Below, in pieces: positions 20,258 through 27,268 of a stretch of 64,000 nt of DNA. Position numbers and translations under genes: made by a program. The notes below the pieces were generated by a model. That model worked only from the letters and a program-made list of their open reading frames with translations, was not told the origin of the DNA and did no database searches. Location of the stretch: NCBI RefSeq assembly GCF_000002985.6, contig NC_003281.10, forward strand, positions 7,750,001 to 7,814,000. Direction: 5' to 3'. This DNA is from Caenorhabditis elegans (taxonomy: Eukaryota > Nematoda > Chromadorea > Rhabditida > Rhabditidae). How positions within the stretch are numbered: position 1 is the first letter of the stretch; every line of letters begins with the position of its first letter.

Positions 20258-20445
20258 TCACTAGGGAATGACCAGAATAAGTGGAGCGATATTCAAAAAA
20301 AAAATATTGTATCGGAAAGCTGACATTCTCTACTATAAGAATATGACTGAAATTTTTGCCCATTCGGGCTGGAAATCTGAAATTTTTACGTCTGAAATTC
20401 TATGTTAACTCTTTTCACTATCCCCAATTAGTACTGCCTGCAACA

Positions 20446-20525
20446 GCGAGATGGCCGAGTGGATAGAGTGGATGACAAGCATGGTGGGACTCTGGGGTTC
20501 AATTCCACCCTAACGTAAAATTTTT
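20446..20525 (+). pseudogene. tRNA-Ser/Leu-like sequence in left foldback arm with Pol III signals
   Basis: A-box TGGCCGAGTGG at 20452-20462 and B-box GGTTCAATTCC at 20496-20506 are spaced as in a tRNA, followed by TTTTT at 20521-20525 that could end Pol III transcription. The GGCCGAGTGG block is typical of serine/leucine tRNAs. The acceptor stem does not pair and there is no long variable arm, so this is tRNA-derived rather than a working tRNA. Confidence 0.55.
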
Positions 20526-20883
20526 CAAAAATTTAAACGTGTTTTTTCGAAACTATATAAAAGCCCAAATTTAATTTTTCTGATCGATATCAGCATGATC
20601 AATGTGTCGACCAACACCATAATGATTCATTCAACATCTTTTCCCCTAAAATTTAAACTTTTTTTCTCAAAATTGTAACTACAACCATGGATCCCCTCAT
20701 ATAAACAATTTTATTCATAGCGAATAATATGAAAAAAAATTTTTAAAAAAGTTTAAATTTTAGGGGAAAAGATGTTGAATGAATCATTATGGTGTTGGTC
20801 GACACATTGATCATGCTGATATCGATCAGAAAAATTAAATTTGGGCTTTTATATAGTTTCGAAAAAACACGTTTAAATTTTTG

Positions 20884-20963
20884 AAAAATTTTACGTTAGG
20901 GTGGAATTGAACCCCAGAGTCCCACCATGCTTGTCATCCACTCTATCCACTCGGCCATCTCGC
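20884..20963 (-). pseudogene. tRNA-Ser/Leu-like sequence in right foldback arm with Pol III signals
   Basis: Mirror copy of the left-arm unit: A-box at 20947-20957, B-box at 20903-20913 and T-run at 20884-20888, all on the minus strand. The two units therefore face each other across the loop. Confidence 0.55.
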
Positions 20964-21590
20964 TGTTGCAGGGAGTACTAATTGGGGATAGTGAAAAGAG
21001 TTAACGTAGAATTTCAGACGTAAAAATTTCAGATTTCCAGCCCGAATGGGCAAAAATTTCAGTCATATTCTTATAGTAGAGAATGTCAGCTTTCCGATAC
21101 AATATTTTTTTTTTGAATATCGCTCCACTTATTCTGGCCATTCCCTAGTCAGTCTCCTCCGATGGAAATGCACGAGTAGTGTGCCAAGCGGCTGCTGACG
21201 TGTTTCTCGTAGCGCCGGCTGGCGCGCTTCGCGTGCGATGATTTTACTTTCTTCATTTTTTCAGTTTTCCCCGTTTCTTTCTTTTTCTATCCTTTTTTCC
21301 AGTTTTTTTTCTATTAATCTCTTTCTTCTTCATATTTGAATGTATTCTGACAATAATTTAAGCAAAACACTTGTTAAATGTCGATAATTTCCGTGAAATT
21401 TGAAGTATTTCCTGAATAATAGGCTTATCTGCTGTTTATGAGATTTTTGTGTACAATAGAACTTTCTGATGTCTTTTCATTGCTTCCTGATCAATTTCTA
21501 GTATTTTTTTCCACAAATTTATTGAAAAACAAAACATTTCGCTAGTAAATAGTAAATAGTTGATCGAACACATTTTCACTGACAGATTGG

Positions 21591-22562
21591 CTAGTCATCG
21601 TTGTCCCAATTTTCTCCGCAATCGAATAGATAATTCAAATTGCCGAAATATTGGCGCATGAGAATGGTTCGAAGCTCAAGATTCTTAACAGTGCTGTATC
21701 TCCTCTCGACTTTGTTGAAGAGCGCGTTGAATCCCTCGATGCCCTGCTCGCTCGACTTTCCCCAAGTTTTGTGACGTTTCATGAATGTAACGAGGTGCGC
21801 GAACATGATGTGGAGTTTCGGAATCACTCCTAAGTCAGGGTGCACCAATCGAAGATTTCTTTTCAAACTTTGCAAAAGAATTGAGATTTCTTCGATTTCG
21901 GCAACTGACAGGATAGCACTCCTAGACCAAGACATCAGTTTACCAAAGTCGAGCATGAGCAGACGCAAGTTTTCGACATCAAAATGATCCTTGAACACGT
22001 CGATCAGTTCTTCGATGGTAGCTGGCCGGAAAAGGTTTCGCACCTAAATTAAGTCTATATTGTTTAATTTCTTCAAGCGCTATCCTATTACCTGATTTCC
22101 ATTTAGTGCCTGATAATAAACGCGTGGATCGCATCCATTTTTAGCCATAACTGCTTCCATCCTCTTCTTTGTTGCTCCTTTAGAAAGCTGCAGTATATCA
22201 TCTAACTCCTTCTTTTCTGTGCTCAATTCATTCAATGACTCTTCTTCCTCTTTTAATCGTATCCTTATATCTTCAATTGCTTCATCAACATGTGCAACTA
22301 GATCATCTACTGTCATAATCTCGCCTTCTCTACAAGGCAGACATTCAGGAGAAGCCTGCGAAGCGTTGTGACGTTGCTCAATGGTGTAGTAGCCTGAGCA
22401 TACAAAATGACAGGCTGAGCTGCAACCAGGTCGTGAGCAAAAAAAGATATCTTGATCTTGGAATTTCTTTGGAAGTCGATTGATACAGCACTGAGGAGAC
22501 GAGCATTTCTGAATTCGACTAGATCTTTCCCTTTTTTCGTAAGCTTCTTTAACAACCATCAT
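21591..22562 (-). CDS. Transposon-borne protein: Cys-rich (PHD-like) finger plus EQG-type domain, probably partial
   Basis: Exons 22092-22562 and 21591-22043 join in frame (NGNQ/VRNLF) for about 307 residues from the ATG at 22562. The first exon has a cysteine/histidine cluster (CSSPQCC, CSRPGCSSACHFVC, CLPC) that resembles a PHD or related cross-brace zinc finger, then an acidic coiled coil (LKEEEESLNELSTEKKELDD). The second exon carries PKLHIMFAHLV...SEQGIEGFNALFN. Similar PKxH/EQGxE-type blocks recur in multi-copy nematode and cnidarian proteins that I associate with mobile elements; that link is from memory. I do not recognise a complete catalytic triad. Just upstream the frame meets a TGA, so the protein may be cut off from a longer N-terminal part. 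Function unknown. Confidence 0.5.
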
Positions 22563-22645
22563 GAGCCTCCGATTTTTTCAATCCTTTTATGACATTTTTG
22601 CAATTTTCTTCTTCTTTATGAATAATGGTTTGGGCCATTTTTTGC

Positions 22646-22999
22646 TCATTTCTGATCTTCATTCAACTTTTGCTTCTCAATATTCTCATCCAGTTCGACC
22701 TTTGTGTTCTTGAATATTTGCTCAATCTCATGTAATTTTGCTCGCAACTGCGTTTCCACTTCACTTTTCAGCTTCACTGTATTTTTTAATGCCAAATTTT
22801 CAGCTTCTGAATTGGATATGGAGATTCTCAAATCGACAATTACGCCCTCTATTTCTTTGACTTTTGTCCCTCGAGCTTCAAGTTCCACCTCCAATTCCAC
22901 GATTCTCTGCTGGCGCTCGGCTTGTTTCTCTTTTTTAATTTCAGGGCCAAGACACCCAGTTTCTCTTCCGGCTGATTTTCTCTTACTTGGAGGAGCCAT
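22646..22999 (-). CDS. Coiled-coil N-terminal fragment of the transposon gene
   Basis: 117 residues starting at an ATG placed directly after an AG acceptor (tttacag/ATG), with a basic N-terminus (MAPPSKRKSAGRE). A long heptad-rich coiled coil follows (KQAERQQRIVELEVELEARG and onwards). It ends at TGA only about 85 bases before the Cys-rich exon at 22562. The two probably belonged to one gene, because I find no good intron that would join them, whereas a frameshift would. I treat it as the 5' part of a decaying transposon gene. Confidence 0.4.
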   Translation of the reverse strand: MAPPSKRKSAGRETGCLGPEIKKEKQAERQQRIVELEVELEARGTKVKEIEGVIVDLRISISNSEAENLALKNTVKLKSEVETQLRAKLHEIEQIFKNTKVELDENIEKQKLNEDQK

Positions 23000-23229
23000 C
23001 TGTAAATAATTGTTTCATCTCAAATTGTTTGGAAATTTCTCTATTCCCTTGCAGCCACATTTATATTTATTTTTATCTTCTCTAGCTTTCTGTGCTCTTT
23101 TTTCCTTTCACATCAATATTGTTTCTTATTTACAGAGCGATTATCTACAACGTCTACAGCGGTCACACAGGAATCTTCTCGAAGTGATATAATTTTCAAG
23201 TAAAAGGTGAATCCAGCTCACATCACGAA

Positions 23230-23386
23230 TTATTACTGGAACGCAAAATCCTGAAAATGCGTATTCCGCAACATATTTCACGCGCAAAATATCTTGAAGT
23301 ATTACGGTAGGTATCGCTACGAGATATTTTACGCCTCCGATATGTTGCAAAAGACGCATTCTCGGGGATTTGTGTTCCTGTAATAT
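23230..23386. repeat. Imperfect palindrome (MITE-like hairpin) inside the transposon
   Basis: The left half ATTACTGGAACGCAAAATCC... is mirrored by ...GGATTTGTGTTCCTGTAAT on the right, with further matching blocks (AATGCGT, GCAACATAT, AAAATATCT). Arms are about 70 bases around a short loop. It looks like a small foldback insertion or an old inverted duplication. Confidence 0.6.
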
Positions 23387-23447
23387 TTTGTTTAGAGATT
23401 ATGAAGTTAAACCAAAAATCATTTCTCAAATATCTCTATTATTTCAG

Positions 23448-23870
23448 GTTCACCAATGCTGAGAACATCAACTTCCGACTCTCCATGGTTATGAAGACAG
23501 GACAATACGTCCTTTACGAGCAGAAGCTGAAGTCGCTTCTCAACGAAAATGCCAAGCTTGTCATCAACACTAAGCACCGAGGTAAAAAATTTATTTTAAA
23601 TATGGCTCATAATTTAACGTTTCAGAATTTTCGAATTGGAAGGATCCGTCATGCTCGTCATAGCTGGAGTTCACCACTACAACGGAAACAAACACAAGCT
23701 TGGCACTGCCCTTGGATTTCCGCTATCTCTGCACCTTCACTTTCGAATATCACGGACAATTTTAATATTTTTTCATCATTAATATATTTTAATGTACATA
23801 AAGAAGTACCGATGTCCTATTTTTGTCTAATAAATTACTTTGTACTCAGAAGGAAGAATCTCAAATGATT
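23448..23870 (+). pseudogene. Broken partial copy of ribosomal protein eL30 gene, with intron
   Basis: After an AG acceptor (atttcag) the frame at 23448-23581 reads AENINFRLSMVMKTGQYVL and KLKSLLNENAKLVI, which is eL30. After an intron-like gap at 23582-23625 (gtaaaa...ttcag), the sequence gives AGVHHYNGNKHKLGTALG, also eL30, but in a different frame, and the spliced frame meets a stop. The first coding exon (Lys-rich N-terminus) is missing. A TAATAAA-like signal follows near 23827. Because an intron is kept, this came by DNA-level copying rather than reverse transcription. It lies within a transposon. Not expected to make ribosomal protein. Confidence 0.8.
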
Positions 23871-24656
23871 TGGCTTTTTCAAATGGATTTTTTAAATTTA
23901 TTTAGATTCAGAACCGATCAATACGTTTCGACTATCTGTTGATAAAGTTGTCGTGTTGGTGAATACTGGAAAGTGGGCTAACCTTTCCGAACGGCTTTCC
24001 TCCTTCGAGATCGGCCGCGTTGTTTGAAAAAGTAGAGCCTGAAATCCGAGTCATTGAATGTTGTTTCTTCGACAGAATTCACACAAATTTTATAAAAATT
24101 AACGAGTTTATAAGGATTTTTTGATTTTTGAGCATTACGAAAGCAAATTGAATCGAATTTGTCTGCAGTTGCATCTTCTTTGAGCATTTTTCCCTATTTC
24201 AGAAAACTGTTGGCCAGGCTGTTCCGTGAAATCGTAATGAAACCATAAATTAAGCATTGATATCCATCCGAAATTGACCATATTGTAGCCAGACATGCGA
24301 ATAACAATTAGAAACTATTTTTACATGCACAGAGCGTTAATAACCGAAAAGAATATAAAAAATAATTTTTTTTTTCTAACTTTCGAGTGTAATTGTTGAC
24401 AATTTTTGTATCAGCGCGTTCAGTTTTTCATTAAAAATTCCCAAAATGATGCAACAAACAGTTTTTTTCCTGCTTAACATTTGATACCTAAAATGAAAAC
24501 GTAAAAACACCGTTTCGAAGAGAAATTCAAGTCACAAAAAACCATCATTTTTTTCAGTGCAAAATAATTCATGAAAATAACAAAAATGCAAGTGCGCGCT
24601 AATGCAAATTTCCATCGGAGGAGACTGTGCCATTGACCAACTCAGTCAATTTCAAT

Positions 24657-24841
24657 CTTCTAAAACGCATAAAGTTTTTTTATTATGTTTTTACTCCGGA
24701 AAATAAGACCAATGTTCAAATATTTGAGCAATATTGACTCCTTAATAAACCTGGTTGACGAATTTTTAAAGATGAGTAAAAGAAAAATACATATATTTTC
24801 ACAGAGATATTTAGTTAGTACCAGCGAATCAAAGACTAAAT
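24657..24841. repeat. Direct repeat copy A, downstream of the MATH-BTB gene
   Basis: Begins CTTCTAAAACGCATAAAG and ends near GACTAAAT. A second copy with scattered mismatches and one 75-80-bp insertion lies at 26270-26527, on the other side of the MATH-BTB gene. Confidence 0.85.
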
Positions 24842-24879
24842 CACAATAATATATTAGCGCTAAAACAGGAAAAAAATGA

Positions 24880-26014
24880 TTATACTGAATCAGAAATCGC
24901 AGATCGATGAAGAGCCGTGGATTTTTTGAGGAGAGTCGCCAGCACAATCGGGTCCATTTCTTCCGGATTATAAGCCATTGCAGCTTCAATCTCATCGATC
25001 GTGTTGATTTTCGAGATACAAACGGTCTGAAAATCAAAATTTATTTTAGTTTTCAGGAATTTTCAAAAAATAAAATTTTACTTTTAAATTCTCCAGCTGA
25101 TATTGGTTAGCCATTTTTAACAGCTCTCTCATCGATTTCATCGACTTTTCGATCAAAAACTCCTCGCATTTTCGAATTGCCAAGGTAACATCGAGCATGT
25201 GGGCAAGTAGAAGAACTCCATCGATGGTACCATCTGAAAATTTAATTATTTTAATTTAAAATCAATTCAATATCTAACCATCAATCGCAGGTTCTCCATA
25301 TAGAACCTCCAAAAGGCTCTGAAAATCGGTCGGATCGATGTTTTGGAGTGTAACCTCTGATTGATCGGCTTCTTTGAATTTTCCAAGAAAAAGTGCATTG
25401 AAATATGAAGAATGAGACGCCAGGAACTGAAAAATATTGAATATTGAATGGAAAATTCGATTGTAAAAAAAACCTACTAGTTTCAAAACATAAAACTTCT
25501 CGTCTCCAACTACAAGGATCACATCGGAAAATCTTTTTTCTGATTCATCGAAGCTTCTGAGCACATCTTTCGAGAATCCTGTCATTTTTGTGATCTTCAC
25601 ACATGCTTCAATAGTAAAACTATTATCGTATAGAAAATCTTCTGTCAATGAGTCCCAACTGACAAAATCATTCCATCCCAGTCCAAATCCATCGAAACAT
25701 CCCTTTTGGAATTTCATTGCATAACTTCCTGATGATGAAGCTATTTTTAAGCTGAATTCGGCGTCGACTGTCCAGGCGACGTTGTCATCTTTCTCATTGT
25801 CACAGTGTAGGTACGCTTCCAGTTGATCTTTCGTGCGAATAACCAATATAAACCTGAAACTAAAGATATTTTATGTAATCTATGACTTGGATAAGACTTA
25901 CCATTCCGCATTGTAATGAATTTCTTCGGGGCTTTTAAAAAAATCGCCATCTTCCAATTGTGAAACATCCTTGAAAGTGTGATGAAACACGAATTCCTTG
26001 CTTGCGGCGACCAT
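24880..26014 (-). CDS. MATH-BTB domain protein, probable CUL-3 ubiquitin-ligase adaptor
   Basis: Exons 25902-26014, 25478-25853, 25279-25426, 25082-25233 and 24880-25026, 311 residues. The N-terminal half (about residues 8-125) is MATH-like and divergent (HHTFKDVSQLEDGDFF, WTVDAEFSLKI, FGLGWNDFVSWDSL). From about residue 144 comes a clear BTB/POZ domain (RFSDVILVVGDEKFYVLKL/FLASHSSYFNALFLGKF) with the usual following helices. MATH-BTB (BATH) proteins, a large worm family, bring substrates to CUL-3 ubiquitin ligases. I believe this is the C08C3.2/bath-type gene next to mab-5 but am not sure of the symbol. The C-terminal exon overlaps no repeat. Direct repeats on both sides suggest duplication history. 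Confidence 0.85.
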
Positions 26015-26269
26015 TTTGAAGAGTTTGCTGAAATTAAACATTTTTAAAACTCAAAAAGTCGAAAAAATCAAATAATTTTTAAATTAAAAGTCATTTGTCC
26101 GCTAGAAAAACGATAACTTTGCAAAGTTTGACGAAAAAAAAAAGATTACAAAAAATCTAATGTGCGTAAATTAGAATGCATTATGTTCATTGCGTACTCT
26201 CTCATCTACCGTAGTTCGCTGACTATTTGTTCGAAATGCAGCATTTATACTATTTACCATCGATAGATC
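26015..26269 (-). promoter_or_regulatory. Upstream region of the MATH-BTB gene
   Basis: About 250 bp between the start codon and repeat copy B. AT-rich near the gene, with a CTACCGTAG motif near 26205. No other site is clear. Confidence 0.35.
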
Positions 26270-26527
26270 CTTCTAAAACGCATAAAGTATTTAATTATGT
26301 TTCTACTTCGGAAAATAATGCCAATGTTCAAATATTTGAGCAATATTGACTCCTTAATAAAAAAAGGAGTCAATATTGCTCAAATATTTGAACTTGCAAA
26401 AGTATATACAAATATTTGAACTTGCAAAAGAATAAACCTGGTTGACGAATTTTTAAAGATGAGTAACAAAAAATACATTTATTTTCACAGAGATATTTAG
26501 TTAGTACCAGTGAATCAATGACTAAAT
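26270..26527. repeat. Direct repeat copy B with internal inverted and tandem duplications
   Basis: Matches copy A (24657-24841) on both sides of an insertion at about 26358-26434. The insertion consists of an inverted copy of the preceding 25 bases (AAGGAGTCAATATTGCTCAA...) and two tandem units CAAATATTTGAACTTGCAAA (26381 and 26410). Confidence 0.85.
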
Positions 26528-27268
26528 TTTAAAAAAATTAAAAAAGCTAATCAACTTTCCGAGAAATTGGACATCTCAAACCTGCAGTTTCTTTGCGAGG
26601 TACTGTAGAAAAGATATTTTCAGGTTTATATAATTATTTCTAAAGTTTCAAGTGTTACTAAGGTATTATTTGGAGGCAATCAATGAAGCTTTACTACCAA
26701 TCATCCAGTACATATTCACACTTTGTGGCCCAGTTTTACAGATTCTTATGTTCATTAGAAATCGACGATATAATTTTTTAGTGTGACGTAACTCAGTTCA
26801 CTTTTTTATAACTACATGGTATATCAACAATCTTCTTTTGCATCTGGCACAGTGAAATATGTGTCGTTTCACAAATGTCCTTCAATTTGTGAGGTCCTCT
26901 GTGAAACATAATGACAGATCAATTTCATCTCCAAAAATCAAAGCAAACAGATATGTTACTGTAGAAAAATTTTCAAGAAAAAAAAATCAAAAAATAGGCT
27001 AGCAGTGTGTAAAAAACAATTTTCGAGACAAAGGTTGAGATCATCAAATCCCAAAGAAGCAAAGGAAGAAATTGAGAAATAATCAATAAAAACAAAGACC
27101 CGTCGAAAGGGCGTGGAATCCTTTCAGGTCGTTTAAAAGCAATATATCACCGATGAAGAATGCAAAAAATCAAAGGAAAATGACAAAAATGGGAGCAAAA
27201 CAATGAAAAGCGACCGGAAACGAGGTAAAAAGAAATTCAAATTAGATTCTGACCAAAAAAAGTGAAAA
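26528..27268. other. Intergenic/3' flank between MATH-BTB gene and mab-5
   Basis: 740 bp downstream of the mab-5 stop codon and upstream of the MATH-BTB gene, likely including the mab-5 3' UTR. AT-rich; no gene or strong repeat seen. Confidence 0.5.

Follow-up and report, generated by a model that had tools for sequence, protein, structure and literature searches.

Features of the locus

The window analysed here is a stretch of 64,000 nucleotides from chromosome III of Caenorhabditis elegans, which is contig C3 of a genome searched as 100,286,401 bases in 7 contigs (positions are those of the window unless a contig is given). It contains a mobile element of 3478 bp, located at positions 21150 to 24627 between identical 20-bp inverted ends. 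The sequence CAGTCTCCTCCGATGGAAAT is found at 21150-21169 on the plus strand and at 24608-24627 on the minus strand with 20 identical positions out of 20, as the sequence-only reading of this DNA had reported when it placed an eL30 fragment inside a 3.48-kb element with perfect inverted ends. As the end pattern was taken from the window itself, one match of CAGTCTCCTCCGATGGAAAT is present by construction; shuffle controls gave a mean of 0.01 matches with up to 3 mismatches. On the right side, the terminal inverted repeat covers positions 24608-24629 (minus strand) and reads CACAGTCTCCTCCGATGGAAAT from the outside in, and the left terminal inverted repeat (21150-21169, plus strand) lacks the preceding CA.

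A MITE-like inverted repeat with arms of 75 nt is nested in the element at 23225-23391. It belongs to an abundant family, with at least 139 matches in the genome (the best 40 of 757 candidates were scored). At the left end of the element, a Tc4-like palindrome occupies positions 20261-21148; it starts with CTAGGGAATG and its arms of 408 nt are 99% identical. The end CTAGGGAATG occurs at 60 places of the genome, 50 of which form 25 facing pairs (manual count), and the bases immediately outside are complementary in 24 of the 25 pairs. These features are in keeping with the Tc4 family, the complementary outer bases presumably reflecting a TNA target duplication. The trinucleotide TCA flanks it on both sides (20258-20260 and 21149-21151, manual count), which indicates that it was inserted into the outermost bases of the element on the left side. 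Both arms of the palindrome also contain a stretch that resembles a tRNA-Ser when read by eye, for which ARAGORN and Rfam (gathering scores) made no call, and no hit was obtained when the window was scanned for tRNAs and Rfam families. Beyond the right end of the element, direct repeat blocks at 24657-24852 and 26270-26538 (89-96%) flank a gene-like stretch of the minus strand (about 24900-26030), and a 28-bp tandem repeat is present at 26381-26436.

Homology of the eL30 fragment to rpl-30

Positions 23455-23691 match C1:10436477-10436735 with 75% identity (E 3.6e-39), and the reciprocal search agrees. This region of contig C1 is rpl-30; DNA searches (including the reciprocal one) and protein searches of the genome revealed no eL30-like place besides it and the fragment. 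Manual splicing of the rpl-30 locus gave a protein of 115 amino acids that is identical to the PDB chain 9bh5_Cc, named eL30, and carries the Pfam family Ribosomal_L7Ae. A literature search for rpl-30 pseudogenes found none. Clear homology extends on the plus strand from 23455 to 23716 and comprises exon 2 (23455-23581; identical in 110 of 127 ungapped columns and carrying deletions of 3 nt and of net 10 nt), intron 2 (23582-23625) and part of exon 3 (23626-23716; 66 of 91 positions identical). A TTTCAG on the same strand (23442-23447) is positioned where rpl-30 has its intron 1/exon 2 border. Of the interval 23448-23870 originally proposed as eL30, positions 23455-23716 are retained, whereas the last 154 bases (23717-23870) have no significant match.

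The retained intron of 44 bp (GT...TTTCAG) is homologous by its position and splice sites to the 53-bp intron 2 of rpl-30, with which it shares the exon junction; the similarity between the interiors of the two introns is no better than in shuffles (482/1000). The eL30 signatures that had been noticed on both sides of this intron are thus borne out by the alignment, in which the intron position is the same as in rpl-30 and the flanks are not significantly similar. When the homology was extended from the anchored fragment, 13 of 200 shuffles reached the lenient score of the 3' flank and 57 of 200 that of the 5' flank, the strict score being 0 on both sides. Local alignment of the flanks alone to intron 1 and to the 3' end of rpl-30 was not significant either (794 and 749 of 1000, respectively). 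Neither border of the captured piece can be placed exactly. An AATAAA is located at 23829, 113 bp past the last clear eL30 base compared with 103 bp in rpl-30 (manual count), a spacing that is no more than suggestive.

At the protein level, the genome search recovered exon 2 of the fragment (E 1.3e-9) and did not detect exon 3. Among PDB chains, the 42-aa peptide of exon 2 matches those of eL30 (E 5.7e-12 for the best), and the exon 2 and exon 3 peptides taken alone reached no Pfam family. The two exons were said to be in incompatible frames, and they are indeed read in different frames even once the intron is spliced: removal of the 44 bp leads into a third frame, where the 13th codon past the junction is a stop (own arithmetic). 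The fragment makes no eL30 protein and has probably decayed since its capture. An origin as a processed (reverse-transcribed) pseudogene that landed in the element has nothing in its favour beyond the fragment being a pseudogene; we give this origin almost no credence, as intron 2 is kept at the right junction, TTTCAG is found at the intron 1 border and no poly(A) tract was seen past 23716. The retention of the intron had been interpreted as a mark of DNA-level copying, and this is supported by the finding of a host fragment, intron included, enclosed by a transposon's inverted ends.

Within an exon 3 that is otherwise 73% identical, positions 23664-23691 form an exact match of 28 nt to rpl-30; a run of this length was obtained in 6 of 10000 permutations. 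The longest exact run in exon 2 is of 19 nt and is ordinary (7263/10000). Such exact matches could suit a present role of the fragment, such as giving rise to small RNAs that match rpl-30 or being targeted by them, but the piece is degraded and its frame is broken, and we regard a role of this kind as very improbable.

Transposase remnants and class of the carrier

The minus strand of the element contains three open reading frames (21591-22043, 22080-22577 and 22646-23014), none of which matched a Pfam family at its cut-off. For the frame at 21591-22043, the genome search returned 20 matches besides the frame itself, some of which are pieces of one place. This frame corresponds to a transposase C-terminal exon, with 46% identity to a relative at C5:1598237 and 42% to another at C2:7151329. 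At higher window positions on the same strand are a zinc-finger-like exon (22080-22577; 37-40% to two relatives), a short stretch in another frame (22570-22650; E 0.002 to residues 490-516 in the C2 relative) and an N-terminal part (22652-22984; 23% and E 2e-5 to residues 5-113 in the C2 relative). Compared with the C2 relative (C2:7149248-7151290), the window element has kept residues 5-113, 490-516 and 523-679 and the C-terminal exon, distributed over three frames. Residues ~114-489 are absent, and DUF1280 covers residues ~195-362 in the C2 relative (manual count). With the DUF1280 part deleted and the frame broken, the element is unable to make a complete transposase.

DUF1280 (PF06918) was matched in all five relatives whose relevant part was scanned (L022, L023, L024, L034 and L038), with E values from 9e-11 to 1.4e-55. 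Eight protein pieces of these five relatives were scanned, and the three without DUF1280 are all downstream of the DUF1280 part. Neither an NCBIfam scan of three relatives nor a search of the PDB with the sequence of one produced an informative match. The transposases of Chapaev transposons are described as forming the DUF1280 family, which belongs to the RNase H-like superfamily and is classed together with RAG1 (accessible part of PMC3985635), and Chapaev is placed in the Transib superfamily in a tree that includes C. elegans (PMC4411706, in the section available). Judged by its sequence, the carrier is a predicted cut-and-paste element of DUF1280 (Chapaev/Transib) type, decayed and non-autonomous, that is, a damaged member of this group. 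MULE ends are accompanied by target duplications of about 9 bp. The ends in the window are of 20 bp, the transposase parts are of the DUF1280 kind, and neither a MULE transposase nor MULE ends were found in the element. Because it keeps parts of a broken DUF1280-kind transposase, the carrier is not a MULE, and the likeness to plant Pack-MULEs proposed in the sequence-only reading is corrected to a decayed DUF1280 element with transposase parts and a single full copy found.

Relatives and their leaders

The end sequence was sought in the whole genome with up to 2 mismatches and occurs at 18 places. In 16 of them it is preceded by CA, from which we have defined the full end as CACAGTCTCC; the two places without CA are the left end of the window element and C1:6566617, which has 2 mismatches. 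The right end in the window is CACAGTCTCC and fits the sequence CAC[A/G]GTCTCC of the relatives, one difference being allowed. Ends of this kind are present on both sides of the C2 and C5 relatives, and one end was seen in others. A partner end is located within 1.5 kb for 11 of the 18 places. Among these 11 short elements with both ends, nine display an exact target duplication (eight of 5 bp and one of 6 bp) and two do not, one of which has a doubtful partner. The end at C5:16644673 is of the CACAGTCTCC type, the sequence following it is unlike the 440-bp MITEs and its sole partner is doubtful; it may be another element with foreign content.

Two longer relatives contain both ends, a transposase and a 6-bp duplication identified by eye, namely C2:7147743-7152219 (TAAAAT) and C5:1594966-1599309 (ACCACG). 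The ends of the C2 relative each differ by one base from CACAGTCTCCTC, and its reading frame is open over 681 codons, to which an exon of 144 codons is added. The relative at C5:1.59 Mb is the closest by its transposase and has a stop within its own frame. For a further relative at C5:19.32 Mb, one end only was found within the stretch examined. The leader between end and transposase measures 1505 bp in the C2 relative and 1178 bp in the C5 relative (own subtraction). In the window element it measures about 1.6 kb and includes the nested MITE-like repeat and the eL30 piece, the latter antisense to the transposase. Since these two relatives have leaders of 1.2-1.5 kb, the eL30 fragment occupies a known compartment of these elements.

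The leader of the C2 relative, searched genome-wide for other captured host DNA, matches itself only. That of the C5 relative has 12 further matches in the genome, of which seven span 373-412 bases and stop near its base 412, one is of 755 bp, two are parts at one place and two are short and internal; we read them as probable relatives of the C5 element and not as host genes. The first ~412 bp of this DUF1280 element (C5:1594966-1595377) recur at the 7 places with 91-96% identity, and the 755-bp match, located on C4, is 97% identical. The recurring leader end looks like a MITE family born from the C5 element.

Copies of the element and target duplications

Copies were searched in the whole genome with five overlapping stretches of the element (21145-21600, 21600-23030, 23016-23450, 23448-23870 and 23840-24640). 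No second copy of the whole element, or of a part with eL30, was found by this search, in which the best candidates were scored and very common words were skipped, so that rare copies could escape. Leaving aside the nested repeat and rpl-30, a single long DNA match was obtained, and it concerns the right end: the segment 24274-24630 (plus strand) is also present at C4:16566483-16566836 with 98% identity. Shorter matches of 52-92 bp are located at C4:14773550, C6:2382388 and C1:13.753 Mb. The C4 copy, of about 354 bp, stops near window position 24274 and does not contain eL30; the other end was not detected in the surrounding 3.35 kb with up to 5 mismatches. The presence of a right end without eL30 indicates that eL30 is no constant component of the transposon family, and the eL30 piece is thus read as acquired. 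The search for further copies, suggested together with the capture, has therefore delivered a right end alone and no whole copy. Ends occurring alone elsewhere had been named in advance as an argument against capture; this is observed in part, for the right end of ~354 bp on C4, and does not exclude a capture.

The flanks of the element (TTCTGCC on the left, CCATT on the right past CACAGTC) have no exact target duplication in common. Counting the ends from CAG instead of CACAG gives TGCCT and TGCCA as flanks, which share 4 of 5 positions; we have not counted this match as a target duplication because CA is a part of the end in 16 of the 18 places. Two cases may be considered, namely damage to the left border and a separate arrival of the two ends. 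The second case corresponds to a composite, in which a partial duplicate of rpl-30 on chromosome III was flanked by two insertions or remnants of one transposon family and the 3.48-kb unit never moved whole. It would explain the absence of an exact target duplication, the ~354 bp of right end alone on C4 and a left end without the CA. However, the two ends are identical over 20 bp, against 2 differences in 15 of the 16 other places, and the order of leader and transposase between two ends is that of two relatives. The Tc4-like insert combined with a local loss could also account for a damaged left border, just outside of which 4 of 5 bases agree with the right side. We consider such a composite unlikely.

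Capture of the fragment, its age and its donor

We favour as the probable explanation that the 5' leader of a now decayed DUF1280 element picked up a piece of an eL30 gene at the DNA level. The piece taken would extend from the end of intron 1, or from exon 2, into exon 3 of the gene, and its capture may have taken place at a time when the transposase of a relative (a predicted activity) was still able to move the ends. The route could have been the fusion of two neighbouring insertions or, once the element had been excised, gap repair or template switching, and the captured piece would then have decayed. Repair of the excision gap with template switching is one of the usual proposals for capture. 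The other, tandem insertion followed by re-mobilisation, was put forward for Pack-TYPE elements in plants (PMC8903248, in its accessible part). As the borders of the eL30 piece are lost, the two mechanisms are indistinguishable here. Against the favoured explanation, one eL30-bearing copy was found and it has no exact target duplication, compared with nine of the 11 short relatives that have one; the borders of the piece are lost; the pattern of changes in exon 2 is unlike that of a neutral copy of the present rpl-30; and the relative at C5:1.59 Mb has an in-frame stop, hence no proven source of transposase.

The alignments characterize the eL30 copy as a putative DNA-level transduplication from a gene still present elsewhere, rpl-30. 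The two copies of the right end diverge by 2%, and the eL30 exons by 13-27% from rpl-30 (ungapped), so that the age of the capture can be separated from the last spread of the right end. We see a slim chance that the donor was not the present-day rpl-30 of the lineage, and was instead an extinct second eL30 gene or the gene of another nematode brought by the transposon. Over the 37 codons of exon 2 that precede the deletion, silent changes make up 7.5 of 13, against silent sites of 24.5 in 111 (22%), with dS 0.39 and dN 0.07 (binomial 0.002-0.012), and neutral simulations gave as few residue changes in 16-115 of 5000 cases. The 28-nt run in exon 3 points in the same direction. Conversely, the whole of exon 3 (30 codons) displays no silent excess (6.5 of 25; dS 0.43, dN 0.33; P 0.30-0.48), the two exons combined give a P of 0.027 only, and the longest run of exon 2 is ordinary. 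The PDB eL30 closest to the exon 2 peptide is the chain identical to rpl-30 (47.0 versus 29.7 bits), in a databank from which other nematodes may be absent. That the donor had diverged as a working gene before the capture is hinted at by exon 2 and not by exon 3, and we propose it with low confidence. If the donor was indeed lost or foreign, the transposon would preserve in this fragment a remnant of host DNA that is lost from the genome or came from elsewhere.

Comparison with known systems

In our search of the literature on gene capture in Chapaev/Transib elements or nematodes, in which subscription papers were mostly outside the scope, no report was found for this family. The window element resembles DUF1280/Chapaev elements by its transposase parts, by ends starting with CAC and by the succession of leader and transposase seen in C2:7147743-7152219 and C5:1594966-1599309; it differs from these relatives by the deletion of its DUF1280 part. 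The target duplication of Chapaev is of 4 bp, compared with 5-6 bp in these relatives.

Like the Pack-TYPE elements of plants (Pack-MULE, Pack-CACTA), the window element carries host gene DNA between the inverted ends of a DNA element (available section of PMC8903248). In contrast to these, it keeps remnants of a transposase, whereas the class is defined there by the absence of a transposase match (PMC8903248, same section); moreover, no second full copy and no exact target duplication were found, the host is an animal and the superfamily is another one.

The capture of coding fragments by transposons has been called common in plants and unknown in animals (PMC2572040, as far as its text is accessible). 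The same source describes Turmoil-1, a Harbinger element of C. elegans that has taken up a piece of cpg-3 as well as two rsp-2 exons with their intron, and the statement that such captures are seldom described in nematodes is weakened by this published case. As in Turmoil-1, host exons with an intron are contained in a DNA transposon of C. elegans, with damage to splicing or frame and no sign of a working protein in the accessible part of PMC2572040. Turmoil-1 is a Harbinger element with its fragments in 760-bp inverted repeats, and is known there from one full copy and eight fragments; unlike it, the window element is of DUF1280 type, no second full copy of it was found and its fragment is located in the leader between short ends. 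The window element looks like another, older transduplication in a superfamily different from that of Turmoil-1, and not like a new kind of event. Another case in C. elegans, in an unrelated superfamily, suggests that capture is not peculiar to one element.
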